From positions 1-11,746 of the forward strand of contig JAQUEG010000008.1 of assembly GCA_028685275.1 (NCBI GenBank): DNA of 11,746 bases. The letters run 5' to 3'. The notes under the pieces were generated by a model that was given only the letters and a program-made list of their open reading frames with translations, did not search any database and had not been told where the DNA came from. Position 1 is the stretch's first letter, and each line of letters opens with the position of its first letter. Origin of the DNA: Bacilli bacterium. Lineage in GTDB: Bacteria > Bacillota_I > Bacilli_A > RF39 > UBA660. A program made the translations under genes and the position numbers. This document shows positions 1 to 11,746 of this stretch, piece after piece.

Positions 1-257
1 GTGGAGGTCATGATGAAGCTGAACTCCTGGCTTCCTGCTATCGCCGCTGTATGGAAATAGCTTCGGAGCATGAGATTGCATCTATAGCATTCCCTAACAT
101 CTCAACGGGGATCTACCGTTTTCCGAAAGAATTGGCGGCTGAGATCGCGATAGCTACTATCAGGAAGGCTATGCTTGATATGCCTGCGATAGAGGTCTAT
201 TTCTCTTGCTTTGATGAAGAGAATTATCGCATATATAGGGATTTATTAAAGAATTAA
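1..257 (+). CDS. Macro-domain protein, C-terminal fragment (5' end outside window)
   Basis: The frame is open from the window edge (first full codon at base 3) to TAA at 255-257. It reads GGHDEAELLASCYRRC, then IAFPNISTGIYRFP, then a helical end. This is the second half of a macro domain: the GGxxxExxLLxxCYR helix and the ISTGxYxxP loop that cradles the diphosphate and distal ribose of ADP-ribose. Members bind or hydrolyse ADP-ribose adducts, such as O-acetyl-ADP-ribose or ADP-ribosylated protein; the ISTGIY loop matches the YmdB/MacroD-like hydrolase type. The N-terminal half with the Asn-rich catalytic strand is missing, so activity cannot be judged. The ATG at base 51 lies inside the domain and is not the start. 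It is co-directional with the operon that follows but separated by 127 bases holding a likely promoter, so it is probably not part of that unit. Composition is closer to the right flank than to the operon. Confidence 0.85.
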   Translation, partial: GGHDEAELLASCYRRCMEIASEHEIASIAFPNISTGIYRFPKELAAEIAIATIRKAMLDMPAIEVYFSCFDEENYRIYRDLLKN

Positions 258-302
258 TCATGATAATATATGGGAAATGGGAAGTGCCTGGAAAGATAGT
301 TC

Positions 303-332
303 TTGACAGGAAGTCGGAAGCTGAAATACTAT
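303..332 (+). promoter_or_regulatory. Candidate sigma-70-type promoter of the seven-gene operon
   Basis: A perfect -35 hexamer TTGACA (303-308) is followed after 18 bases by TACTAT (327-332), which matches the -10 consensus at four of six positions. An overlapping TATGAT (330-335) matches better, but its 21-base spacing is too long. Transcription would start near 340, giving an untranslated leader of about 45 bases before the GTG at 385. No other good promoter-like pair was seen between the macro gene and the operon. Confidence 0.5.
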
Positions 333-373
333 GATAACAGGTGTTTCCTAAATAAAACATTATTTGTTATTTT

Positions 374-378
374 GGAGG
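374..378 (+). promoter_or_regulatory. Ribosome binding site fixing the GTG start of the vWA gene
   Basis: GGAGG at 374-378 lies six bases before GTG at 385. The frame is open further upstream to a TTG at 364, but that codon precedes the Shine-Dalgarno and has no purine-rich site of its own. GTG 385 is therefore preferred, and it places the signal peptide at the very N-terminus. Confidence 0.7.
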
Positions 379-384
379 TTGTGC

Positions 385-1611
385 GTGAGAAGCGGATTAA
401 AATATGCCCTTATCGTTATTGTATTTGTTATGGGCTTTCTGATGAGTTGTTGCTCTAAGTGTCCATTGTTCCATGAATTGACAGACTTGGAAAAGCCATT
501 TGGTGTTGAAAGCACTCAAGCGAAAACCGATCCTCAACATTTTAATGTATTTATAGATGCCAGTATGAGTATGTATGGGTATACAGGCGATAACAGCGAT
601 CTGTTCAGGATAATCAACACCGTTATTAGCCGGATACCGAATAATGCAACCATTAAACTCTACCGGTTTGGTCGCGGCTCCAGCGAGTTGCAGGGTGACC
701 TCAGGCAGGTACTGCACTCGATCTCAAACCGAAAGTTTTATAATGAGGGAGACACAGACCTAAATGAGCCATTCAAACACATTTTAGACGACCGAAATTC
801 AATCAATCTTATATTTACAGACGGTGTTCAATCGACTGCTCACTCACTGTCAGACTATGTGATCTTTGCACGTAATCTAAAAAGTTATCTTGGTGAGCAC
901 GGTTTCTTTTCTTTCAAAGGGACACAAGCCTCGTTTGAGGGCTACTATTATTCGGAAATGAAAAAAGCTTCTTTAAACATTGCTCCTGGAAGCACTCGCC
1001 CATTATACTGCCTAACGTTTGGAGACCGTAAGTACGCAAAATTCATAACAGACAAGTTCAGTGACCTATTTGAGAATCATTTTGATTTCGGTTTCGTCTC
1101 AGATAACAAGATGGATTTTGTTGATAATGTTGACGGTGTTTCCGTACCCAAGGGACTTGTTTTTAATAATGACGATTATGATTTACCACTCACGCGCTAT
1201 ACTTTAAAAAACCAAGCACAGGAGCTAAACTTCAATTTGAAAGGTTATGAGGACAGCTTCGGCAAAACGATTGATTATACAGTTGCATATATGGCGAAAA
1301 CAGACACATCTTATAGCGTTATTGATGATGCCCATGGTAATGTGAATGCCGAAGTCACTATCGGGACTGACCGCGCATCCTTCATTATACCATTTCCTTA
1401 TAAAGACAGAGGATGTTATCTAATCCGGCTCACTTTTAGAAAGACCTTGCCAAAGTGGATAGAAGAGTGGAGCACGGACGATGATTATAAAATAGAAAAC
1501 CAACAGAAAACCTTTAATTTAGCTAATTGGATGGGATTTATCATGGATAGTTTTGAAGACTATAAGTACCTTGCCACTACCCAATATTACCTGCACGTTG
1601 ATAGGAGATAA
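385..1611 (+). CDS. vWA-domain lipoprotein, first gene of the motor operon
   Basis: Read from GTG 385 the protein has 408 residues. Residues 1-21 form a short basic N-terminus plus a hydrophobic helix ending in LMSC, a lipobox-like signal with Cys22 as the probable lipidated residue. The methionine at -2 is unusual but tolerable. From about residue 53 a von Willebrand A fold is visible, with the metal (MIDAS) set apparently complete: DASMS at 58-62, Thr124 in GDTD and Asp146 in FTDG. Such domains bind a divalent ion and a protein ligand. The remaining 200 or so residues are beta-rich and unrecognised. Lipidation would put the domain outside the inner membrane, with Cys23 at +2 giving no inner-membrane retention signal under the E. 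coli rule. Its stop shares one base with the next start (TAATG), so translation is probably coupled. It may sense or clamp an envelope or surface ligand for the motor. The vWA call is firm; the role is inference. Confidence 0.8.
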   Translation: MRSGLKYALIVIVFVMGFLMSCCSKCPLFHELTDLEKPFGVESTQAKTDPQHFNVFIDASMSMYGYTGDNSDLFRIINTVISRIPNNATIKLYRFGRGSSELQGDLRQVLHSISNRKFYNEGDTDLNEPFKHILDDRNSINLIFTDGVQSTAHSLSDYVIFARNLKSYLGEHGFFSFKGTQASFEGYYYSEMKKASLNIAPGSTRPLYCLTFGDRKYAKFITDKFSDLFENHFDFGFVSDNKMDFVDNVDGVSVPKGLVFNNDDYDLPLTRYTLKNQAQELNFNLKGYEDSFGKTIDYTVAYMAKTDTSYSVIDDAHGNVNAEVTIGTDRASFIIPFPYKDRGCYLIRLTFRKTLPKWIEEWSTDDDYKIENQQKTFNLANWMGFIMDSFEDYKYLATTQYYLHVDRR

Positions 1612-2015
1612 TGATGCTGAACATATTTTTCTTCTTGTTCTACCCTGACATCTACTTGGTAGATTGGCACAGTCATATGCTAGAAAGCGTGATAGTCTCT
1701 TTCGGCATTGTCTTGCTTTCTATTTTCGTATACGGCATATTTCGTTATCGGAGAGAGACAGAATCCATTAAGTTCTGGACAGTCTTCGGTGGCGCAATGC
1801 TCATAGCTTTTTGCTATATATTTTATAAGTCTACTACGATCTCTATCGACATTTGCCGTGGGAACTATAAGCTCTTGTACGTGTTGAATTTCATGATATC
1901 CTCACTTCTATTAGAGGTGGGGTTATTCTATGCTGCTAGTAACATTTTGGGGAGCAAGAAATACTTTGCACGCGTGCATGAGTATTTCAGAAAGGGCAGT
2001 AAGGAGTTCAAATGA
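1611..2015 (+). CDS. Small three-helix membrane protein of unknown function
   Basis: This 134-residue protein has three hydrophobic segments at about 25-46, 56-73 and 85-108. The RYRRE cluster after the first helix and the basic C-terminus (FRKGSKEFK) suggest, by the positive-inside rule, that the first loop and the C-terminus are cytoplasmic and the N-terminus faces outwards. No enzyme motif was seen and I do not recognise the family. The start overlaps the vWA stop by one base, with AGGAG just upstream, and the stop overlaps the tubulin-like start by four bases (ATGA). It is therefore locked between the outside-facing vWA lipoprotein and the cytosolic tubulin-like protein. A linker between these two is a reasonable guess but unproven. 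ATG 1614 is an alternative start one codon later. Confidence 0.75.
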   Translation: MMLNIFFFLFYPDIYLVDWHSHMLESVIVSFGIVLLSIFVYGIFRYRRETESIKFWTVFGGAMLIAFCYIFYKSTTISIDICRGNYKLLYVLNFMISSLLLEVGLFYAASNILGSKKYFARVHEYFRKGSKEFK

Positions 2016-3457
2016 GATACTATGTATTTGCAATAGGAGGGACAGGTGCCAGGTGCCTGGAATCCCTCGTATTTTTATGCGCTATGGGTTTGGGACCCAA
2101 AGAGCTTCACCCAATATTGGTAGATCCAGATAGTAGCAATGGAAATGTTAACCGAACACGGACACTAATCACCAAATACAAAGCTATCAGGGATCAATTG
2201 ACAAATTCTGTTGAAGGGGATTATTTTTATACTGATATTCTATATGAAGATACTGAGGACAAAAAAGACACCAAGCTAAGGATTCCCAATGTGATCAATC
2301 CCAATGCAGGTCTTGATACTGGGATGAATACGCTGGCCCATTTCATCGAATATAACAACAACCTGTCACTTTCGGATGATAAATATCTGGCAGATCTCCT
2401 CTACAGTAAAAGAGAAATGGACATGGACATGACTGAAGGATATCGGGGTGTGCCATCTATTGGCTCAATACTTATGACAAATGTCAAAGATCATCCATTC
2501 TGGCCAGTCCTTACCAGTGCTCTAAAAAATGACTCCAGCTCCAAGGCATTCATCTTTGCTTCAGTATTTGGGGGAACCGGGGCTTCAGGATATCCGGTGA
2601 TTAGTCAGCTTTTAAAGAAAGCTGCTCCAAATGCCCGGGTGGGAGGTGCTTTGCTACTTCCATATTTCAGGCTTCAGGATCCTAAGAATCTGGGCACCCA
2701 AACTGAGGCATTCAATAATGACGAAATCCTGCCAGACTCAAACTTTTTTCTGATGAATACCAAGGCTGCCTGTGAGTTTTACAAGAACAATTTCTCTAAG
2801 AATGTTTCCAATTATGTTTTAGGCGACGATTTGGATATTTGCTCCCAATATGAGAATTATAGTAAGGGTAGTGCGGATCAGGAGAATAACTCGCACATGA
2901 TAGAGTTGTTTGCCGCTTACGCTGCTTTGGATTTCGGTGTAAGAGAAGATGGCAACTATAAAGACTTCTATCACATACAAGTACAAAATCCTGATAGAGA
3001 ACCTAAGACTTACGAGGTAACAGCCAGTGACCTACCACACTTCCAAAAGGGCTTGGTATTCGAGAACTTTTCCCTTTTTTACAATTATATCATGGACATC
3101 AACCGACTTATCGAGACTTCCAAGACATCTCTACTGAATAAAATAGCTTGGCTAAGGAATATGAAATTCAATGGTCGTTATATAATGGATCATAAAGATG
3201 AGTTAAAACCACTTGTTAGTTTTTGTCAATCTTACAAGCAATGGATCCAACAGATTCATACCAACAGCGCTAACCTCAATGTTGTAAGCCCCGAATTAAG
3301 AATGGATTGCCTGATATCAGAAAATCAAGATAAATATGCTGGTTATCCGATAAGTCGTATGGATAAGAAGCTTCATGGCAGAAAGACCAACCATGAAAGA
3401 CTTGTTAATGCCTTTATTAAAGTATTGTCTGCCGCTAGAGTGGAAAGGGGGAAATAA
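2012..3457 (+). CDS. Tubulin/FtsZ-fold-like GTP-binding protein
   Basis: The 481-residue protein opens with a beta strand and the glycine loop AIGGTGARCLES (residues 7-18), then an acidic strand end VDPD (37-40). A second glycine loop, FGGTGASG, lies at 186-193 after the hydrophobic strand AFIFASV. This pair is what tubulin-like families show: an early Rossmann-type phosphate loop and the tubulin signature GGTGxxxG. The closest family I know is the 'tubulin-like' group (Pfam Tubulin_2). The later stretch with His and Glu in SHMIELFAAYAALDFG resembles the conserved helix of that family. I see no clear T7 catalytic loop (NxDxxD type), so filament-coupled GTP hydrolysis is uncertain. No signal peptide or membrane segment is present, so it is cytosolic. 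It overlaps the upstream gene by four bases and the Hsp70-like gene by one. Role is unknown; a nucleotide-switched or polymerising partner of the motor is inferred. Confidence 0.7.
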   Translation: MRYYVFAIGGTGARCLESLVFLCAMGLGPKELHPILVDPDSSNGNVNRTRTLITKYKAIRDQLTNSVEGDYFYTDILYEDTEDKKDTKLRIPNVINPNAGLDTGMNTLAHFIEYNNNLSLSDDKYLADLLYSKREMDMDMTEGYRGVPSIGSILMTNVKDHPFWPVLTSALKNDSSSKAFIFASVFGGTGASGYPVISQLLKKAAPNARVGGALLLPYFRLQDPKNLGTQTEAFNNDEILPDSNFFLMNTKAACEFYKNNFSKNVSNYVLGDDLDICSQYENYSKGSADQENNSHMIELFAAYAALDFGVREDGNYKDFYHIQVQNPDREPKTYEVTASDLPHFQKGLVFENFSLFYNYIMDINRLIETSKTSLLNKIAWLRNMKFNGRYIMDHKDELKPLVSFCQSYKQWIQQIHTNSANLNVVSPELRMDCLISENQDKYAGYPISRMDKKLHGRKTNHERLVNAFIKVLSAARVERGK

Positions 3458-6400
3458 TGCCACGTCCATTATTGCCAGATCATAAAGGAACCGTTGCGCA
3501 AGCAACTCCTGGCCAATGGCTAGATTTCACGCAAGAATTTTCTACATTCCAAAGTAATATTGTAGTATCTCAGCAGGCAAAAGCCAATGTCACTTCTATT
3601 CCTTCTCCTTGGGCTCGCATGCTCCTATTCAAAGAAGCTATAATGGACAAAAACCATATATTGCACATGGAGGTAATGTCCAACATTCTTGATGTGATCG
3701 AGCTTATTTTCTATGAAGATATGCTAACTCTGACGCTTACAGCTAAAGAAATACACATTTCTGATGAACCGACAAATAATAAGCTTCGCAAGGTTCTATA
3801 TGACCTTCATCCTGAGAACTTAGCGGATATATCAATAACCTTGATAATTGCCTCGCGAGGAAGCGAAACTTTTGTCGTTGCGGGCACAAGTCAGTACACT
3901 ATGTTCTTTACTCCTCTGGATTTGAAGGTCCAAAACAAGTTCATGCGATATTTCAAGGACGTTCCTGTGCCACTTAGTGAGCGGCCTTCTGATTTTCAGA
4001 TCTATATAAACAAAATACTCATACCTAATTTGTCGGAAGATGGACGTTATAGTGGATTGGTGAATGCATTCAATCTTAGTAATGGTATATGCAAGGGATC
4101 CGACCAAGGATTGGCAGATAATTCAAAATATGGCGTTTCAGATCTGTCTCATCAGTGCGGACTGTCATCAATTTTAAAGAGGTACACGATAAATGACATA
4201 AGTAGCTGCAATCTATTACGACCTTCAAAGGCAGGGATAAGATCGCCACTGGTTATAGACGAATCATCCGGCCTTAAAGGCAAGTCCTATTATAATAATT
4301 ATTTATTCAATGGTGACTACACGTTTAGCACATTAAGGATTATGGATAGAAAGTCTTTACCAGGAGAGGACGTAGTTTATCCTTGGGTCCTACCCAAACA
4401 CGATTTTCTGGAACCGGTTATCATTAAATATAAATATAAGATGAATGACAAGTTCCTAGTTTTAGGGGAAAATACTGATGTCTATGAATACGCTTTGCCG
4501 CTCAAAAAGGAGTTCTTCGATTACTTTGATCCAGAAGATGTCGATAAGTACTTGACCATTCGGGAAATGGGGGCTAATCAGGTTAGAGTTAAATTGGAAA
4601 TTCCGGTTCAAAACGGCAAAGTCATTGAGGTTACCAGAGATTATCTGGGACATTATACCAAAAGTACCGATGAGAACGTGATACTGGACTATGATTCAAG
4701 CGATAGCAACACTCCTCTTCCTCATATCGTCATTTGGCCAAACTTAAGTCCTGAAGATTGGAAAGATCCGTATTACGGTTTTGTGTATGGGAAAAGATAT
4801 GGAGATACAGTGAACACGGAGCAAATATCGCTCGAGTTTTTGGATGATAATCTGGAAAATGTTAAGTTTGGTCAATCAAGAAAGACCAGAGCTTTGGAAA
4901 TATTTAGATTCGAAAACCTGCCCACTTATGTTTCCTTAAGACACATTGAGAGCGGTAGCCAGGCTTTTTTGATTCTGGATCACAAGCTTTTAAATAAGCA
5001 CAAGCCCACGGTTAATGATGCAGTAGTAGGAATGGACTTTGGCACCTCACACACTAACATTGCCATTAAATACAATAACAAGACTAGTATCCTGAAATAC
5101 AGTTCTAACTTCAAAGGGAAGAATCTGAACGACAAAGATTTCATAACCTTGATACAGTTTTCCGATAAACAAGTTGGAGCAGACCAGATACCTGATTTGA
5201 TAAAAAGTAACCTTGAACAGTATTTCATGCCCAACTGTCTCAGCGAAATTAGCGACGCACAGTCTGTAAATTTTCCGCTTCCAACCATGGTCGCTACCGA
5301 GAAAAACGCTTCCGCCGAAGCCTTACTAAGGACATCTATAAACTTTTCAAAGTACAAGTATGTCCCTTATGCAGTTCCTGCTAGTCAAATTAATAAAGAG
5401 ATGCAGGTAATGACTGACTTGAAATGGAACCACGAATTAAATACTCAAAACGCTGCCAAAGAGTATCTGAAAGTACTGCTATCTTTAGTGAAATATGAGC
5501 TGATCAGGAACGGAGTTAACCTGGCATCTGTAAAATACATCTGGGCTTATCCCAAAGCTTTTTCAGAAGTTGACATTGTGAAATACAAAACTATGTGGAA
5601 TAAACTGCTACAGAATCAAAATGTAGAAAGCACTGACGAGAGTAAGGCCGCACTTCTATACTTTGATTATAAAAAAGATCTTAATATGTTCGCTCCCAGC
5701 ATGTCTATTGTTATCGATGTTGGTGGCGGTTCTTCTGACATCTCAGTCTGGAGTGATGGCAATGTTCATTTGCTATATAGTTCTCTCTGGGCAGGGAGGA
5801 ACTTAGTGGGAGTGCCGACAGGAGACAACGCTGATGGCAGTCACTCAGTTATATATAGTGCCTTAAAAAATGGATTCCCAGCAATCGCACAAAAATATTC
5901 GAACCTTGAAGATTATCAGACACATCTAAACTTCATGCTCTCTTCTATATCTGATGCCGATCTGGCTCAACACATGCAAACGAGAGAATTCTTTAAGGTC
6001 AGGTTCCTGATCATCTACTTCTTTAGTTCACTTCTTTTCGAGATCGGGTTGCAAAGCAAGAGATTTTTAACGGGCATCAATAAAATTGACATCTGTCTGG
6101 CTGGGAACGGATCGCGGTTTGCCTGCTGGAGCTGTGGCGATCCAGGCAAGATTGCAGAACTTGAAGCTGAAATATACCGAAAGGTTATCAGGCAAGCTAT
6201 GCTGATCGATGAGACTGTCCAGATTAACTTCATACCATCACGTGAGCAGAAGAATGAGGTGGCTATAGGTCTGTGTGAAGGGGATAATGATCTTCTGATC
6301 CAAAGCGCAGATGAGGAACCTTATGTCGCTGAATCATTGTCATTGAAGGGGAAAGATGTAGATTTTGATACCTTGATAAAAGAATTTGATGAAATGATAA

Positions 6401-6708
6401 AGGACAATGGCAATACAATAAATATAGACATGAAGGGTTCTGAGATCCTGAGGTTTCACAGTGTACTATTCAATATTCTGAAGGGGACCAACCTATATAT
6501 GCAGGATTTGAAGCATGATCCCAAACTGGCAGATCTCAACAGAATAACACAGACAATTATTCGAGATTGGGACAACCTTATTGGTTCGGTAAGAAATGAG
6601 GTTATCGATAACAAATCTAAGCTAAACTCAATCTCCAGTTCGATCTTCATCCTTGGAATGCAGGGCATTATTGATAGGCTACACAACTACCTCTCCCAAG
6701 CCAATTAA
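3457..6708 (+). CDS. Large Hsp70/actin-fold ATPase with about 520-residue N-terminal extension
   Basis: The protein has 1083 residues. The second half carries all three actin/Hsp70 nucleotide motifs: phosphate-1 GMDFGTSHTN (525-534), phosphate-2 DVGGGSSD (754-761) and the adenosine loop LAGNGS (881-886). It then ends in a helical region, about 930-1083. The ATP-binding core is thus intact. The first 520 residues include IPSPWARMLLF near 48-58, have no signal peptide or transmembrane helix, and match no family I can name. The large size and late ATPase recall Hsp70-like conflict proteins and, loosely, SrfB-type 'virulence factor' proteins; I cannot confirm either. No canonical substrate-binding beta domain or DnaJ partner is seen, so a general chaperone role is unlikely. 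Its start shares one base with the tubulin-like stop (TAATG), preceded by a GGGGG-rich Shine-Dalgarno. Pairing with a tubulin-like protein suggests an ATP-driven switch or filament feeding the membrane motor; this is inference. Confidence 0.75.
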   Translation: MPRPLLPDHKGTVAQATPGQWLDFTQEFSTFQSNIVVSQQAKANVTSIPSPWARMLLFKEAIMDKNHILHMEVMSNILDVIELIFYEDMLTLTLTAKEIHISDEPTNNKLRKVLYDLHPENLADISITLIIASRGSETFVVAGTSQYTMFFTPLDLKVQNKFMRYFKDVPVPLSERPSDFQIYINKILIPNLSEDGRYSGLVNAFNLSNGICKGSDQGLADNSKYGVSDLSHQCGLSSILKRYTINDISSCNLLRPSKAGIRSPLVIDESSGLKGKSYYNNYLFNGDYTFSTLRIMDRKSLPGEDVVYPWVLPKHDFLEPVIIKYKYKMNDKFLVLGENTDVYEYALPLKKEFFDYFDPEDVDKYLTIREMGANQVRVKLEIPVQNGKVIEVTRDYLGHYTKSTDENVILDYDSSDSNTPLPHIVIWPNLSPEDWKDPYYGFVYGKRYGDTVNTEQISLEFLDDNLENVKFGQSRKTRALEIFRFENLPTYVSLRHIESGSQAFLILDHKLLNKHKPTVNDAVVGMDFGTSHTNIAIKYNNKTSILKYSSNFKGKNLNDKDFITLIQFSDKQVGADQIPDLIKSNLEQYFMPNCLSEISDAQSVNFPLPTMVATEKNASAEALLRTSINFSKYKYVPYAVPASQINKEMQVMTDLKWNHELNTQNAAKEYLKVLLSLVKYELIRNGVNLASVKYIWAYPKAFSEVDIVKYKTMWNKLLQNQNVESTDESKAALLYFDYKKDLNMFAPSMSIVIDVGGGSSDISVWSDGNVHLLYSSLWAGRNLVGVPTGDNADGSHSVIYSALKNGFPAIAQKYSNLEDYQTHLNFMLSSISDADLAQHMQTREFFKVRFLIIYFFSSLLFEIGLQSKRFLTGINKIDICLAGNGSRFACWSCGDPGKIAELEAEIYRKVIRQAMLIDETVQINFIPSREQKNEVAIGLCEGDNDLLIQSADEEPYVAESLSLKGKDVDFDTLIKEFDEMIKDNGNTINIDMKGSEILRFHSVLFNILKGTNLYMQDLKHDPKLADLNRITQTIIRDWDNLIGSVRNEVIDNKSKLNSISSSIFILGMQGIIDRLHNYLSQAN

Positions 6709-6723
6709 TACTAGAGGTTAAGT

Positions 6724-7356
6724 ATGTTAATTTATATTGCAATCTTATCTTTTACAGTCCTCGCGGTTGCAGTTGTCCTCCTTTTTTTGTACATAAGGGG
6801 GGAGTTAAAAGATATCAACGAATCTCTGTCTTATAAGAGTTACAAAAATTATAAGACATCCAAAGATGATTCGAATAAGCTGAGCAACCTGACCCGGCAG
6901 CTTAATGATATGAAGTTGGCAATTGAAAAACAGCGTACTGTGTTTGAGAGTAGGATCACGAAGCTTGAGCAGATAAAGAACGAAAACGCAGATATGCAAG
7001 AAAGATCGAAACCGAAGAAAGAAAATACGGTTAGTCAAGAAGGTAGTAAGAGGTCTGTACCGGAACAAGATACTAGAATATGGGTGCAGAGGACAGAAGA
7101 CGGATTGAAAAAACTAGAGGTATCAGATACAAAAAAAGACATGTACTTGTTGAAAAAAGGTGATTATTTTCTATTAAATCTGACCGATCTCAGGCCTTCA
7201 TCATATGTCGATATTATGAACCTCTACGGCAGTATCATCGGTTTCCCTGCGGGTTTTGAAGCCATTAATAAGATAACTATGTCCGTAAATCCCAGATATA
7301 ACAAACAAGGGGATTACTTTCACTTTGAAGCTCAAGGCGAAATAACTGTAAACTAA
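6724..7356 (+). CDS. Single-pass membrane protein with coiled coil and small C-terminal domain
   Basis: The protein has 210 residues. Residues 2-24 form one strongly hydrophobic helix followed by RGELKD, giving a probable N-out, C-in anchor. A heptad-like coiled coil runs from about 50 to 92. A charged linker spans about 93-117 (KPKKENTVSQEGSKRS). A compact, probably beta-rich domain covers 118-210 (RIWVQRTEDG...GDYFLLNLTDLRPSSYV...GEITVN). I do not recognise the domain. The start has AGAGG upstream and lies 15 bases after the ATPase stop; the next gene follows after another 16. It stands immediately before the channel gene. A membrane-tethered adaptor between the ATPase and the channel's coiled-coil tail would fit but is not shown. 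Confidence 0.7.
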   Translation: MLIYIAILSFTVLAVAVVLLFLYIRGELKDINESLSYKSYKNYKTSKDDSNKLSNLTRQLNDMKLAIEKQRTVFESRITKLEQIKNENADMQERSKPKKENTVSQEGSKRSVPEQDTRIWVQRTEDGLKKLEVSDTKKDMYLLKKGDYFLLNLTDLRPSSYVDIMNLYGSIIGFPAGFEAINKITMSVNPRYNKQGDYFHFEAQGEITVN

Positions 7357-7372
7357 TTACGAGAGGATATTC

Positions 7373-8848
7373 ATGGTTTTTATTATCACAGTCTTTGTCG
7401 TGGTTGAAGTACTGCTTTCCATAATTATGGGAAGTAGAGCTTCTAGAGTCATCAAAAAAGAAATGAAATGGATCGAGGACATCAGGGACCAGCTTGGATC
7501 AAGTGACGAGGGGGTTTTTGATTCCATAGCGAAAGAGCAACGTAACCATAGGGTTATTGACTATCTTGCTACCTGTGCCGAGACTGGACAGCAAGTAAAT
7601 GCTGCAGATTTCTCTAAATTACTATCTACAAAAACAGAGCAGGCTTTCGAGAAGATAAATTCAGTGATGAATGTGCTCCCCATCATCGGGTTGATGGGCA
7701 CGTTTCTGGGAATTGTGATAGGTATAAATTTTATTGATCTTGAATCAGGCCTTGATATCGAGAAACTCTCTGGCATCATCCAACCTTTGATAAGTGCAGC
7801 GGGGCTGGCATTTATGAGCAGCTTGGTCGCTTTGTTCTGTGCCACCATCCTTAAAGCTATATTTGGTGTTAAGCGCAGTAGGATGAATCATGTCATAAAC
7901 GATACCGAAAATGCATTATTGATTGACTACATTCCTCATATAGCGCCTAAGGATACTGAAGATCGTTTTGCTAAGACAGTTAAAAAACTGGACAGGAGTA
8001 TATCGGGCTTTGTGAACAACTTCCAACAAAGCTATTCGGAGTTTATTGCAGAGTTTAAACCTCTGGTTGAAGACCAAAAGCACACAAATGCGGAAACAGT
8101 AAAGGCGATAGAGAATGTATCCGTGAAGCTGGCTGAAAATACCGAGAGCTTAAAGCAGATCACTTCTCAGCAAAGCAATCAAACTGAGTCCTTAAACACC
8201 GTTATCACAAATATTTCAGCAGCCAGCTCATCTCTTGAAGGTAGTATAGAAGTGGCCTCCAAATCACTTCAAGAATTTGCCAAGCTTGGTATAGAAATGA
8301 AGAACAGCATAAGTGAAATGCACACACCCCTTAAGGAGATCATCACGGGAAACGCTGCAGTTAATGTAACTATTAACAAATTATTCAAAGAATTACCCGA
8401 ATATAACCAGATGGTCGTGCAATATCTAAATGCCCTGAATACCAAACTCGACACTTTCCGAGAAGTAGGAGAAAAAGTACAGAATGTCAAAGCGGAGTTT
8501 AGCGTATTTTCGGAACATCTGGGGAAAATGTTAACGCAGTTTACTGCAGACTCTGAAAAATTCCGTCTCCTCATGGAAACAAACTTTAGAGATTATGACA
8601 CAGCCTTAAGGACAGCTTTCCATGGTATTGCAGAGAAGAATGATATTGAACTATTCTACTACGACCCCAAGGCGATAAAACTACTTCAAGAGCTGGCCGC
8701 AGAGAACGGTCGGCTGCTTTCACAGGTGGAACGGGCTACGAACTCTTTTGATAAAAGTACTGAAAATCTGCTGAAGGCAATGAATGACCTGGGCTTTTGG
8801 GGTTTCTTCCGCCGCAAGAAAAAGGAAATAAAGGGTAGAGGGAAATGA
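7373..8848 (+). CDS. MotA/TolQ/ExbB-family motor channel protein with long coiled-coil tail (ZorA-like)
   Basis: The protein has 491 residues. Hydrophobic segments lie at 1-20, 101-120 and about 138-165, the three-helix plan of ExbB/TolQ and ZorA. The family core is clear: LPIIGLMGTFLGIVIG (102-117), then ISAAGLAFMSSLVALF (140-155), equivalent to the pore-lining helices of TolQ/ExbB. Thr110 and Ser149/Ser150 are candidate polar pore residues. From about 180 to 465 the chain is largely helical, rich in Glu, Lys, Ser and Asn, with methyl-accepting-like coiled-coil character. It ends in a basic stretch (FFRRKKKEIKGRGK). A long cytoplasmic tail is what separates ZorA from the short ExbB/TolQ proteins; ZorA tails are usually longer than this one. 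It should form a pentameric ion channel with the next gene's product, whose start overlaps its stop by four bases (ATGA). GAGAGGA precedes the start. Confidence 0.85.
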   Translation: MVFIITVFVVVEVLLSIIMGSRASRVIKKEMKWIEDIRDQLGSSDEGVFDSIAKEQRNHRVIDYLATCAETGQQVNAADFSKLLSTKTEQAFEKINSVMNVLPIIGLMGTFLGIVIGINFIDLESGLDIEKLSGIIQPLISAAGLAFMSSLVALFCATILKAIFGVKRSRMNHVINDTENALLIDYIPHIAPKDTEDRFAKTVKKLDRSISGFVNNFQQSYSEFIAEFKPLVEDQKHTNAETVKAIENVSVKLAENTESLKQITSQQSNQTESLNTVITNISAASSSLEGSIEVASKSLQEFAKLGIEMKNSISEMHTPLKEIITGNAAVNVTINKLFKELPEYNQMVVQYLNALNTKLDTFREVGEKVQNVKAEFSVFSEHLGKMLTQFTADSEKFRLLMETNFRDYDTALRTAFHGIAEKNDIELFYYDPKAIKLLQELAAENGRLLSQVERATNSFDKSTENLLKAMNDLGFWGFFRRKKKEIKGRGK

Positions 8849-9456
8849 ACAAGGGACACAAAGATGAGCTGAACTACTGGCCAAGTTTTGCGGATATCTT
8901 TGCCTCTTTGTTCTTTATCTTTCTAATACTGTTCTCCGTTTATTATACCAGTATGCGTAAAATTGCAGACGCAGCTCAGGAAGACATCGATGATTTGAAA
9001 ACCATGATGAAAGCTTTAGACATCGAGAAACTTGATGATGATGGAAAATTGGTAATACCAGGTGATCTTTTGTTTGATAGCGGGAAAAGCCATATAAGGG
9101 TCGGGAGAGCGGAAGATTTTGCCACAAAGGTTGCTGTCCAACTAAGTAAGTACTTTAAGACTATGGAACGCCAGAAAAAGTATACTATTATTGTCGAAGG
9201 CCATACGGATACAGTAGATTCTGAAGAATACAATAACAATCTGTCACTTAACCGTGCGCTATCTCTGATTAGTCATATAGAGCAGCACTTAGATCCAGCT
9301 GTGCAGGGTAAAATTGAGTTTATACCGGCAGGCTATGGAGAGACAATGTTGCTAATACCCACAGCGGATAATAAAAATGAACAACGTAACAGAAGAGTAG
9401 TGATCAGAATAATGCCGAAGTTTAATATGACCATTGAGTCGATGACTCGAGAATAG
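8845..9456 (+). CDS. MotB/ZorB-like protein with OmpA-type peptidoglycan-binding domain
   Basis: The protein has 203 residues. A short cytoplasmic N-terminus leads to one transmembrane helix at about 14-34. Near its start lies Asp17 in PSFADIF, matching the ion-carrying aspartate of MotB, ExbD and ZorB. A short linker follows, then an OmpA-like domain from about 65: LLFDSGKSHIR (75-85), GHTDT (119-123) and NLSLNRAL (132-139). Asp122 and Arg137 fit the pair that grips diaminopimelate in peptidoglycan, and NRRVVIRI (182-189) closes the fold. It would anchor the motor to the cell wall as the dimeric core inside the channel ring encoded just upstream. The OmpA domain and aspartate make it closer to MotB/ZorB than to ExbD/TolR. 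It is the last gene of the operon; the convergent peptidase gene ends 40 bases later, and no clear terminator lies between. Confidence 0.9.
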   Translation: MNKGHKDELNYWPSFADIFASLFFIFLILFSVYYTSMRKIADAAQEDIDDLKTMMKALDIEKLDDDGKLVIPGDLLFDSGKSHIRVGRAEDFATKVAVQLSKYFKTMERQKKYTIIVEGHTDTVDSEEYNNNLSLNRALSLISHIEQHLDPAVQGKIEFIPAGYGETMLLIPTADNKNEQRNRRVVIRIMPKFNMTIESMTRE

Positions 9457-9496
9457 GATTATGATCCACCTTGAATCATCAGGTATTACACTGGAC

Positions 9497-10180
9497 TCAG
9501 ATGCAGAACATTCTATTCTTACCCATCCGCCAGATCCTGAGAAAGAGTTCCAGAGGATAGCGGTTATTATTGCCCTGTGCTCTGCCGGGATCGTGTAAAA
9601 AGATGTAGTCGGGAGAAATGCCCACTACGACCATAGCGTGAAAGGTTTTGATTTCCGGATTCATCTTGCGCTTGACGGTTACCATAATGGGCTTCCCCAA
9701 ACGTAGATAATCTACCAGGATGGGGAGGTTGCCGTTTCCATTGTGCAGTGGTTCCACTCCCTTTAGTTTGAGAAATTCCTTCGCTTCAGTATCAGAATAC
9801 CCTACTTTATTGCCGCTGTATCCATTTATGGGTTTTCCTTTGGTCATCTCTGCCCAATCATCGAATTCTTGAATCATTTCTTTGGTGGGTGCGATTCCTT
9901 TGTAATGGGAATAGAGCATTGCCGTTGAGGCTGGGACGCAATTGCTAGTATGTTTCCACTCTCCGGGTGGGACTTGTGCCTTGAATTTGACATCGAGCTT
10001 GATTGTGGGTATGCTCTCCCGGGGAAGTGAGGCGTCCAGATCAATTTCTTTAGCTTGGGCTGGTGCCGGTTTCTCAAGTTTTGGATTTATGTGAAACCGG
10101 TTGAAGATCAGCCAGCCACCAATTACCAAGACTGCGCATAACAGTACCGCAATCGCTACTCTGCCTATCGTCCTGTACAT
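9497..10180 (-). CDS. Membrane-anchored C39-like cysteine peptidase family protein
   Basis: The protein has 227 residues. Residues 6-26 form a hydrophobic signal anchor; a proline/alanine-rich linker follows to about 66. The rest fits the papain-fold C39-like group (Peptidase_C39_2): Cys81 in NCVPASTAML, His181 in TFHAMVVVGI and Asp197 in LHDPGR, in the right order and spacing for a catalytic triad. The domain would sit outside the inner membrane. C39 peptidases best known from ABC transporters cut leader peptides at double-glycine sites, but free-standing members have mostly unknown substrates. The oxyanion glutamine expected a few residues before the cysteine is not obvious (GEWKHTSNC there), so activity is uncertain. 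AAGGAG stands seven bases before the ATG. It faces the motor operon tail to tail, so a shared function is not implied by operon structure. Confidence 0.75.
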   Translation of the reverse strand: MYRTIGRVAIAVLLCAVLVIGGWLIFNRFHINPKLEKPAPAQAKEIDLDASLPRESIPTIKLDVKFKAQVPPGEWKHTSNCVPASTAMLYSHYKGIAPTKEMIQEFDDWAEMTKGKPINGYSGNKVGYSDTEAKEFLKLKGVEPLHNGNGNLPILVDYLRLGKPIMVTVKRKMNPEIKTFHAMVVVGISPDYIFLHDPGRAQGNNNRYPLELFLRIWRMGKNRMFCI

Positions 10181-10210
10181 AATACTGCTCCTTATTGTTT
10201 TTTTTACTCA

Positions 10211-10238
10211 AGACTTGGCGATCTTACTATCCAAGTCT
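10211..10238 (-). repeat. Perfect inverted repeat upstream of the C39-like gene
   Basis: AGACTTGG at 10211-10218 and its exact complement CCAAGTCT at 10231-10238 flank a 12-base loop. On the minus strand the element ends 30 bases before the C39-like start and is followed by an A-rich tract, not a T-run, so it is not a normal terminator for that strand. On the plus strand the T-run lies before the stem, the wrong order too. It could be an operator for a dimeric regulator or a hairpin in the 5' leader. Confidence 0.5.
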
Positions 10239-10454
10239 ACACATAAAGGGCTATATCAGTTAAGCACAAAGCCAGCTAATTCCATTGGGCCAAGCGGCTG
10301 AAGATATTTTTTGCCGAGCTGGGATTGATCAGAATGCTGGTACAAACCTTTATTTAGTCCAAGTAGTCTATTTGTGCAAGGTGATTCATACATCCATATT
10401 GCGTCAAGGACTATATTTTTTGGTATTCCTCAGCATCCAAAACCCAGATTTAAA

Positions 10455-10489
10455 GGAGGAGCCGGGTCACACCCTCTCCTCCGCTTTTT
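10455..10489. terminator. Terminator-like hairpin downstream of the ARPP-1 gene
   Basis: GGAGGAG (10455-10461) pairs with CTCCTCC (10476-10482), and inside it GGGT (10464-10467) pairs with ACCC (10471-10474), giving a strong G+C-rich stem. On the plus strand TTTTT follows at 10485-10489; on the minus strand the stem is followed by TTTAAAT. The ARPP-1 stop lies about 40 bases upstream on the minus strand, so the likely use is to end that transcript. The better T-run is on the plus strand, so it may act in both directions. Confidence 0.6.
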
Positions 10490-10521
10490 ATAACGCACTT
10501 AACTCAAATCTGAGATTACCT

Positions 10522-11490
10522 TTAGCTCCTCATTCCACGGTGAAATCTCTCATTATTCATTCTGCTTTCATTTCCCTGATGGGGGAAAACACTCAGATGA
10601 ACAGGATGATCATTCCAAAGTAGGGCTGAGCCTGTGAGATTCGGCTTTTCGATGCGCAGTTCTTTGCCCAGACCGATTCCGTCAAATTCGCTCAGTCTGG
10701 CATCTTTCAGCAGCTCTTCCAGGCTGGGTCTGGAATCATTCTGCGGCGGATATTGTTCCTGGCTGCGCAGAGCGTCCATGGCGTAGGATCTCAGGATTTT
10801 ATCATACAGATCCTGCCAGACTTCCGGGCTGGAGACCAGATCCAGGCCGGCAAAGCGTTTGCCGATCAGGGCATAGATCCCGCATTGTCCTGCTGTGAGC
10901 GGGAAGGACTTCTGGAAATCCTCCAGTTTGTTTTTGCTGCTTTCATACACGTCTGCCATGGCACCGGTGAGCGAAGGGCTGGCATGTTCCTGCTGCAGCA
11001 GAGCAATATCTGCCCAGACTTCATGTTGATCGGATCTGGCACTGCGGTCTATTCGGTAAGATGCTGATACGCTATGCAGTAATTTGCTCTTCAAGCTAGG
11101 CTGCATCATGTTTCCGGATTCGCTGAATTCTTTGCTTTGGTAAGACCAACGTCCTGCTTCGGTGCAGGTTACCGGAAGAATGGTCTCGCTAAGAGGGGCG
11201 ATCAAAACGGTAGTATTGAGAATGCGGTTTTGTTTGGCACCGCGCAGTTCCTCTCCGGCCAGGATGAGCACGGTATGTTTTCCTTGATTGATCACCTTCA
11301 ATTCCGGAACGCTGCCACTCTGGCTAAGCTCCGAGATGTGGATTTCTCCTGCCTCCAGGGCCTTGCGCAGGGAGATGTAGTCGTGCGGACAATAGGCCTT
11401 GCCCAGCATCGGATAGATTCTCAGTGCGCCATAGCTTTGCGGCACACCGGCCTCGTAACTTACGAGTTTGTCGAGTAGAACTTTTATCAT
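10522..11490 (-). CDS. ARPP-1-family protein (ARG and rhodanese-phosphatase-superfamily-associated domain)
   Basis: From ATG 11490 the protein has 322 residues. I recognise the ARPP-1 family (Pfam ARPP-1) by GEELRGAKQNRILNTTVLI near residues 79-97, followed by PVTCTEAGRW at about 106-115, with a polar helical second half. No signal peptide or transmembrane helix is present from this start, so it is cytosolic. Biochemical function is unknown; the family was named for gene-neighbourhood links in prokaryotic conflict systems. The frame stays open upstream to 11721 (77 more codons), but GGGAGG (complement of 11496-11501) lies five bases before ATG 11490 and the conserved part begins just after it. 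That makes 11490 the preferred start. G+C is clearly higher than in the motor operon. A terminator-like hairpin follows its stop. Confidence 0.75.
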   Translation of the reverse strand: MIKVLLDKLVSYEAGVPQSYGALRIYPMLGKAYCPHDYISLRKALEAGEIHISELSQSGSVPELKVINQGKHTVLILAGEELRGAKQNRILNTTVLIAPLSETILPVTCTEAGRWSYQSKEFSESGNMMQPSLKSKLLHSVSASYRIDRSARSDQHEVWADIALLQQEHASPSLTGAMADVYESSKNKLEDFQKSFPLTAGQCGIYALIGKRFAGLDLVSSPEVWQDLYDKILRSYAMDALRSQEQYPPQNDSRPSLEELLKDARLSEFDGIGLGKELRIEKPNLTGSALLWNDHPVHLSVFPHQGNESRMNNERFHRGMRS

Positions 11491-11653
11491 GATTTCCTCC
11501 CAGGAATTTTTGGGACACGGCTTTATAACCGCGCCTTCTGTATTGTTACATGCGGGGCAGGAAAGTGATCCTGACAAAATTAATGAGTTTCTCGAAATAT
11601 CGCTTGAAAAACCATCCAGCCACCGCCAAAAACTCTGAACTCTCCAATTTCTC

Positions 11654-11682
11654 TTGACCATTAAGGCGCTCAAACTTATCTT
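11654..11682 (+). promoter_or_regulatory. Candidate promoter for a gene leaving the right edge
   Basis: TTGACC (11654-11659) and TATCTT (11677-11682) are separated by 17 bases, a good sigma-70-like spacing with five of six -35 matches and a weaker -10. Transcription would start near 11690, about 20 bases before AAGGAG and a start codon at 11713. The site diverges from the ARPP-1 gene. Confidence 0.4.
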
Positions 11683-11712
11683 GCCAAAAGATAAAAGATT
11701 CAAGGAGTAATG

Positions 11713-11746
11713 ATGCAGCACAGGGGCAGATCATTTGAATCCCAAT
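11713..11746 (+). CDS. Possible start of an unidentified gene (3' part outside window)
   Basis: AAGGAG (11702-11707) lies five bases before ATG 11713; ATG 11710 directly precedes it in the same frame but is only two bases from the Shine-Dalgarno. The frame reads MQHRGRSFESQ and is open to the edge. With so few codons nothing can be said about function. The case rests on the ribosome site and the promoter-like pair upstream. Confidence 0.35.
   Translation, partial: MQHRGRSFESQ

Follow-up and report, generated by a model that had tools for sequence, protein, structure and literature searches.

The stretch of DNA studied here, which we call the window, comprises positions 1 to 11,746 of contig JAQUEG010000008.1, filed under a Bacilli bacterium (assembly GCA_028685275.1); between positions 385 and 9456 it holds seven co-directional genes that place a Zorya-type ZorA–ZorB motor pair beside a tubulin-like protein, an actin-like protein and a vWA-type lipoprotein (Table 1). 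Adjacent genes overlap by 1, 4, 1 and 4 bases or lie 15 and 16 bases apart, and the list of open reading frames (ORFs) agrees with the layout described in the original prediction, an earlier note made from the sequence of this stretch.

Searched singly with Pfam, the window proteins gave one match that was not weak, to OmpA (5e-11); Tubulin (1.9e-4), MotA_ExbB (8.7e-4), MreB (0.0024) and VWA_2 (0.15) all fell below the Pfam cut-offs. Because matches outside OmpA were weak, we judged folds from profiles of relatives and from structural models, which settled most of the seven.

Table 1. Genes of the operon and its neighbours, with window positions
Feature	Positions	Strand	Basis
vWA-type lipoprotein	385..1611	+	ORF from 364 or GTG at 385; GGAGG just before the GTG
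Small three-helix membrane protein (TM3)	1611..2015	+	Hydrophobic segments at 26, 53 and 88
Tubulin/FtsZ-like GTPase, 481 aa	2012..3457	+	Pfam Tubulin; invariant Gly loops; model and Foldseek
Actin/Hsp70-fold ATPase, 1083 aa, domain at ~520-950	3457..6708	+	Conserved residues; PDB profile; Foldseek
Protein with N-terminal transmembrane segment, coiled coil and C-terminal domain	6724..7356	+	ORF; place in relatives
ZorA-like MotA/TolQ/ExbB channel with long helical tail	7373..8848	+	PADLOC; NCBIfam; PDB
ZorB/MotB-like anchor: transmembrane segment with Asp17, OmpA peptidoglycan-binding domain	8845..9456	+	PADLOC; PDB; conserved residues
Convergent gene for a C39-like peptidase (hydrophobic segment at the N terminus)	9497..10180	-	Pfam Peptidase_C39_2, 5e-10
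Macro-domain gene	1-257	+	Whole copy at L026:6318-6869; PF01661, 1.5e-48
ARPP-1 domain protein	10522-11721	-	PF20208, 2.4e-92

The motor pair and its partner proteins

The anchor protein matched the PADLOC model ZorB1 at 1.9e-24, and the NCBIfam ZorB1 model at 28.7 bits against a cut-off of 400. When its alignment of 34 sequences was compared with the PDB, chain 8vvn_B came first (6e-26), followed by 8qyd_F (5e-18), with MotB behind (1e-14); W12, D17, G119 and R137 are present in all 34 rows, Asp17 lying in the transmembrane segment and Arg137 in the OmpA domain. We carry the roles of Asp17 and Arg137 over from Zorya and MotB. The channel protein matched PADLOC ZorA1 (2.5e-12) and, below its cut-off, NCBIfam ZorA_4 (4e-10). 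The top PDB match of the ZorA profile was apolipoprotein A-IV (4.7e-11) and many further matches were long-helix proteins, all probably composition effects; 8vvn_C (1.4e-10), 8vvi_F, 8qyk_A and other chains of the 8qy series also stood high in the list. By these profile comparisons, the motor pair is nearest to Zorya among the motor-type chains of solved structures.

Zorya as described in the available part of PMC11890865 likewise has a ZorA channel with a long tail and a ZorB with a transmembrane Asp and a peptidoglycan-binding domain; it works with ZorCD or with the ZorE nickase, whereas the present system has tubulin, actin and vWA genes and, in relatives, exported enzymes. Among the window proteins other than the motor pair, PADLOC at E up to 1 gave no match to ZorC, ZorD, ZorE, ZorF or ZorG, in line with the original prediction that no known Zorya effector is present.

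A ZorB profile scan of 296 Bacteroidota genomes, in which up to 10 candidates were scored per genome, returned three strong matches (192-238 bits, one of them in the seed genome, G427), all adjoining a tubulin gene, and a next-best match of 71 bits; motor homologues standing mostly apart from the other genes, the finding named beforehand as speaking against the prediction, were thus not what we saw. In 299 Pseudomonadota genomes the ZorB1 family matched in 38 with none above the cut-off, so the loci from there (L134-L145) were not used as Zorya yardsticks. A tblastn search of plasmids with the window ZorB gave no match, and ZorB labels first attached to L126 and L127 were not supported by the ZorB profile scan.

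In the tubulin-like protein, G9, G10, G12, S184 and the FGGTGA loop at F186-A191 are invariant in 49 of 49 aligned rows. The structural model (pLDDT 84.5) has a helical C-terminal part and no long coiled coil, and all 50 Foldseek matches listed were FtsZ, tubulin or microtubule entries, with a best E of 1.4e-4 and low TM-scores (0.22-0.46). At E 0.01 its sequence profile matched no chain in the PDB, and the Pfam scan gave no Tubulin_2 match for the window protein; its relative in L084 passes that family's cut-off (45.8 against 27 bits) and those in L027, L025 and L093 fall below it. On the strength of the model, the protein is predicted to fold like FtsZ and tubulin.

For the actin-like protein, D527, G529, D754, G756, G757, D761 and G883, which include key residues of the phosphate motifs, are present in all 45 aligned rows. 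Its profile matched MreB in the PDB at 6e-8, and also Hsp70, and the model (pLDDT 77) matched MreB and Hsp70 in Foldseek at E of about 1e-8; the ATPase domain is thereby modelled as an actin/Hsp70 fold with intact nucleotide motifs. No relative was found for the N-terminal region of about 500 residues. Profiles, models and conserved residues together support the predicted combination, in which a vWA lipoprotein and two NTPases of cytomotive fold are linked to a Zorya-type motor pair.

The vWA protein carries a MIDAS-like DASMS at residue 58 and a lipobox with Cys23, the cysteine being present in 45 of 47 aligned rows, and D or E at position 58 and D146 in all 47. Its profile found no PDB chain at E 0.1, so we assign the fold from the weak VWA_2 match and the conserved motif residues; a role as an envelope sensor or clamp is probable. 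A similar small membrane protein occupies the TM3 place in most loci, and at the place of the coiled-coil protein relatives in 52 loci share a C-terminal domain whose profile does not recognise the window copy.

A recurrent core, a dispensable motor and the host of the window

Scanning genomes with four tubulins yielded at least 550 relatives, of which the best 80 were kept, a sample that leans towards the window. The loci counted were 50 non-redundant ones (tubulins less than 70% identical) and 11 from sampled genomes, 61 tubulin loci in all; three loci from a plasmid collection were left out of this set, and 50 loci with more than 8 kb downstream were called informative. Genes were labelled by iterated profiles on a simple ORF caller that misses genes lying under longer antisense ORFs. 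At L129, for example, the caller hid the tubulin frame, although its FtsZ loop can be read in the DNA; labels there cover the actin-like gene, ZorB and SNase. For GC-rich loci, the numbers of genes scored as absent are accordingly upper bounds.

The core order vWA, small membrane protein, tubulin, actin recurs across many phyla, which argues that the arrangement is not due to chance. An actin-like gene lies within three genes of the tubulin gene in 60 of 61 loci, and a vWA gene lies upstream in 50 of the 56 loci with room for one. In three of the four other Cloacimonadota loci (L128, L130 and L131, the fourth being L129) all seven places of the window are filled, that of the coiled-coil protein by an unlabelled gene of 202-268 aa. 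By taxon label, the hosts among the best 80 include Bacteroidota, Cloacimonadota, Poribacteria, Gemmatimonadota, Planctomycetota, Acidobacteriota, Nitrospirota, Bacillota and Cyanobacteriota, although labels of metagenome-assembled genomes (MAGs) can err, as the window itself shows. Prevalence is low: the system was present in 8 genomes of 296 from Bacteroidota and in 5 of 98 from Cloacimonadota, counting the seed genome of each. Complete operons are present in cultured Terrimonas ferruginea DSM 30193 and Pontibacter roseus DSM 17521. The tubulin alignment recovered five loci from viral contigs (L106-L110), which may be viral or host DNA; searching viral contigs with the actin-like protein alone found nothing. 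Ten Selenomonadales loci (L035-L037, L041, L042, L044, L050, L054, L056 and L069) carry a related tubulin with no labelled actin-like gene and in another gene setting, and may represent another system.

The motor is less constant than the core: among the 50 informative loci ZorA was labelled in 41, ZorB in 38, both in 36 and neither in 7. Core loci without a motor include L047 and L123 and, from the plasmid collection and outside the 50, L022, L023 and L025; a plasmid tblastn search likewise led to Prevotella and cyanobacterial loci with vWA, membrane-protein, tubulin and actin genes and no labelled motor. The motor thus joins a wider core as a common yet dispensable module, and the original prediction is supported in part. 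Since cores without a motor occur, the motor seems to be an addition to the core, not the core an addition to the motor. The same loci bear on the idea that this is a plain Zorya subtype in which the tubulin- and actin-like proteins replace ZorC-G as cytosolic effectors; the closeness of ZorA and ZorB to Zorya chains would fit it, but the missing ZorC-G matches and the motor-less cores make it very improbable.

As for the host, window bases 1-11746 are identical (100%) to positions 6613-18358 of a Candidatus Cloacimonadota contig, L026, which carries acetate kinase and TldD genes beside the shared part. Ten stretches of the window's own assembly, a genome of 0.87 Mb, were taken, four of which (L115, L116, L117 and L119) were all N; the six readable ones have 24-27% GC against 41.5% in the window, and their tetranucleotide correlations are 0.97-0.99 with one another and 0.66-0.72 with the window. 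Given the Cloacimonadota match and these compositional mismatches, the window contig is mis-binned into a low-GC Bacilli-like MAG. Mis-binning alone is too simple a picture, since the window correlates at 0.62 with the left flank of L026 and at 0.71 with the pool from its own assembly. The shared part of L026, at 41.5% GC, sits between flanks of 49.5 and 50.1%, and this lower-GC patch, with the tetranucleotide mismatch to the left flank, suggests that the operon was probably gained laterally. The true host is probably diderm, which fits the OmpA domain and the lipoproteins. None of 59 other genomes closely related to the window's assembly had a match, as follows from the mis-binning, and in a phylum sample of 392 genomes 15 besides the window's own gave weak matches only, at query residues ~694-781, which we infer to be MreB.

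The enzyme slot and its possible role

Relatives often carry interchangeable exported enzymes after ZorB, of trypsin, retropepsin, SNase, NucA or EEP type, a feature out of reach of the original prediction, which had no relatives to compare. In the three places that follow the last core gene, these five classes account for 40 of 191 genes, against 4 of 684 other unlabelled genes of the same loci. The contrast (Fisher 7e-24) is overstated, since slot genes served as seeds for the effector profiles and the loci are related to one another. The four outside the slot also adjoin the operon, on its other side, and control regions gave one weak match among 233 genes. A Pfam scan of 96 of 105 unlabelled downstream genes, counted from the first 25 of 53 families, gave Trypsin_2 8, SNase 6, retropepsin 6, Endonuclease_NS 5, Exo_endo_phos 3, TerD 3 and YkuD 1. 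Protease and nuclease genes are paired in 8 of 50 loci (trypsin with SNase in 4, retropepsin with EEP in 2, and retropepsin with SNase and trypsin with NucA in 1 each). L051, with retropepsin and NucA, nests on short branches with the trypsin loci L034 and L058, and by this branching appears to be a recent effector exchange. SNase follows ZorB in the window's nearest relatives L027, L130 and L131 and, by position, in L129.

By a simple pattern, a lipobox is present in 12 of 13 trypsin, 7 of 7 retropepsin, 7 of 7 SNase and 6 of 8 NucA proteins. SG directly after the lipidated cysteine, a motif chosen post hoc, occurs in 8 of 13 trypsin, 6 of 7 retropepsin, 1 of 8 NucA and 1 of 7 SNase proteins, and overall in 17 of 51 downstream lipoproteins against 4 of 50 vWA and 5 of 86 other lipoproteins. 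An SG-basic stretch shared by unrelated effectors in L034, L039, L047, L049, L051, L060, L104 and L123 could be a docking or sorting tag.

Further slot proteases include a subtilase (L045), a transglutaminase-like protein (L072) and, in Hymenobacter, a prolyl oligopeptidase-type lipoprotein behind ZorB (L085), with similar genes in L081, L086 and L090, the Pfam assignment being that of L085. The Poribacteria slot protein, which has no Pfam match, we take to be transglutaminase-like from a motif. Other slot genes have no Pfam match or, like an ion channel in L062 and a gene with BNR repeats in L065, are apparently unrelated. Where the motor is missing, the loci have retropepsin, TerD, YkuD or further genes. 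At L127 (positions 1672-5128, minus strand) three TerD genes and a proline-rich protein follow the tubulin/actin-like core, which may point to a connection with Ter stress systems.

A slot of swappable enzymes suggests a cell-surface defence system, and Kaur et al. 2020 (PMC7159879, in the part available) took such a combination, a constant core with degradative enzymes that can be exchanged, as the mark of conflict systems, NucA with trypsin among them. An ion-driven ZorAB-type motor anchored to peptidoglycan may thus be the transmembrane part of an envelope conflict system, a reading drawn from genes and models that we favour tentatively and with less than even confidence. In it, the vWA lipoprotein and ZorB would detect a foreign ligand or a disturbed envelope. 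The tubulin-like GTPase and the actin-like ATPase would form an assembly, kept at the membrane by the transmembrane and coiled-coil proteins, that either receives the signal from the motor and its cytoplasmic tail or gates them. Periplasm-facing enzymes would then be activated or released, a protease possibly activating a nuclease, to attack DNA or proteins crossing the envelope, such as a phage genome, conjugating DNA or rival effectors. In the window the effector would be the convergent C39-like peptidase or be encoded elsewhere. A narrower proposal, of periplasmic immunity in which the tubulin-actin pair gates the motor, the vWA lipoprotein provides the readout and lipoprotein protease-nuclease pairs are licensed against phage or conjugative DNA crossing the envelope, we consider unlikely.

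The envelope conflict reading draws support from the core order across phyla, the 36 of 50 loci with both motor genes, the slot enrichment, the enzyme pairs and their exchange, the lipoboxes, the SNase in nearest kin, the patchy spread and the lower-GC patch in L026. Several observations weigh against it, beside the inflated Fisher value. In genomes drawn without regard to the window, both motor genes were found in only 4 of 9 informative loci and neither in 2 of 9, and protease or nuclease classes stood beside both motor genes in 2 of 9. No profiled effector class is present in 23 of 50 informative loci; a lipobox was found in just 1 of 5 EEP and none of 4 transglutaminase-like slot proteins of Poribacteria; and the Hymenobacter prolyl oligopeptidase gene may be an unrelated neighbour. 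The window itself has no co-directional effector after ZorB, the C39-like peptidase there being convergent; among the loci compared, that peptidase's profile matches only the window and its duplicate contig, and we regard it as a possible occupant of the effector place. In the Hymenobacter/Pontibacter group the tubulins are nearly identical across species, which looks vertical and fixed. The flanks showed no clear enrichment of known defence genes, and their scan decides neither way: PADLOC at 1e-15 matched 52 models for 140 of 192 flank genes and 9 models for 140 of 219 control genes, but most of the flank models were redundant, single-member GajB models, joined by type II restriction-modification (RM), a reverse transcriptase (RT) and RtcR, with distinct genes not resolved.

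Some of these points fit an envelope- or membrane-remodelling machine for housekeeping or stress, in which the two NTPases would form a membrane-bound scaffold, force across the envelope would come from the motor, and the enzymes encoded behind ZorB would help locally in cell-wall or protein turnover. Makarova and Koonin 2010 (PMC2875224, seen in part) proposed such a role for operons of FtsZ-like proteins (FtsZl1) with vWA and OmpA, and the tubulins that hardly differ between species of Hymenobacter or between species of Pontibacter, where the five profiled classes are absent, the 23 of 50 informative loci without such a class, the YkuD transpeptidase at one locus and a motor-less core in a Pelagibacteraceae genome of about 0.9 Mb all agree with it. 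The patchy spread within phyla (8 of 296, 5 of 98) does not, and swapped nucleases and proteases of unrelated folds suit wall maintenance poorly; we judge remodelling somewhat unlikely. The lipoboxes of many slot enzymes, and the large number of Bacteroidota among the best 80 hosts, would also be expected of a machine that secretes or deploys degradative lipoproteins and displays them for antagonism, predation or the scavenging of extracellular DNA and protein. Lipoproteins can move without a motor dedicated to them, however, and in Pfam at E up to 1 none of the seven genes matched an outer-membrane channel or an adhesin, which leaves this explanation quite improbable.

Earlier descriptions and flanking genes

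According to the original prediction, this exact set of genes is not known from a described system. We found no description of the full set in the open-access literature, preprints not being covered, and the available parts of PMC12505986 and PMC9871819 hold nothing on it, the latter mentioning Tubulin_2 proteins as scattered FtsZ-like sequences; its outline, by contrast, was predicted in 2010 (PMC2875224) and 2020 (PMC7159879). Makarova and Koonin predicted that FtsZ-like, vWA and OmpA proteins form a multicomponent membrane-remodelling system, and those three components are common to FtsZl1 (Tubulin_2) operons and the window. In most FtsZl1 proteins, whose type protein is 1051 aa long, the GTPase domain is followed by an extended coiled coil and a C-terminal domain of helices, whereas the window's 481-aa protein lacks a long coiled coil. 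The portion of the description at hand names no MotA/ZorA-type channel, actin/Hsp70 ATPase or exported effectors, although families in its supplement could overlap; it names kinases and a P-loop GTPase, neither of which Pfam shows among the seven genes.

The DO-GTPase/GAP1-N2 systems with tubulin, HSP70 and vWA parts and the NucA-trypsin System 3, predicted conflict systems of Kaur et al., resemble the present one in their constant NTPase core, swappable enzymes, tubulin, HSP70 and vWA components and NucA and trypsin effectors. The former are marked by a TRAFAC GTPase plus GAP1; Pfam at E up to 1 found no P-loop GTPase among the seven window genes, GAP1 not being searched by name. The tubulin and HSP70 themes are described there, in the text available, as non-overlapping, whereas the window system has both; NucA nuclease and trypsin-like peptidase were not found among the window proteins by Pfam and in relatives form one of several exchangeable sets. 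A word search of the same text found no MotA, TolQ or ZorA-type motor, and a motor anchored to peptidoglycan together with enzyme export sets the window system apart from those described. Parts of the combination had been predicted before; no paper listed by searches of the open literature had the attachment of ZorAB, the ATPase of actin type or the slot for exported proteases and nucleases.

Both prokaryotic cytoskeletal folds and a Zorya-class motor would then sit in one envelope machine conserved across phyla, and the FtsZ-like 1 tubulins described in 2010 would gain a testable output in exchangeable exported proteases and nucleases. The ZorA and ZorB profiles used in defence annotation also match this system, which is a warning for such annotation, and the cultured hosts with complete operons make direct tests possible.

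A macro-domain gene and an ARPP-1 gene border the operon on its two sides; both families are tied to ADP-ribose chemistry.

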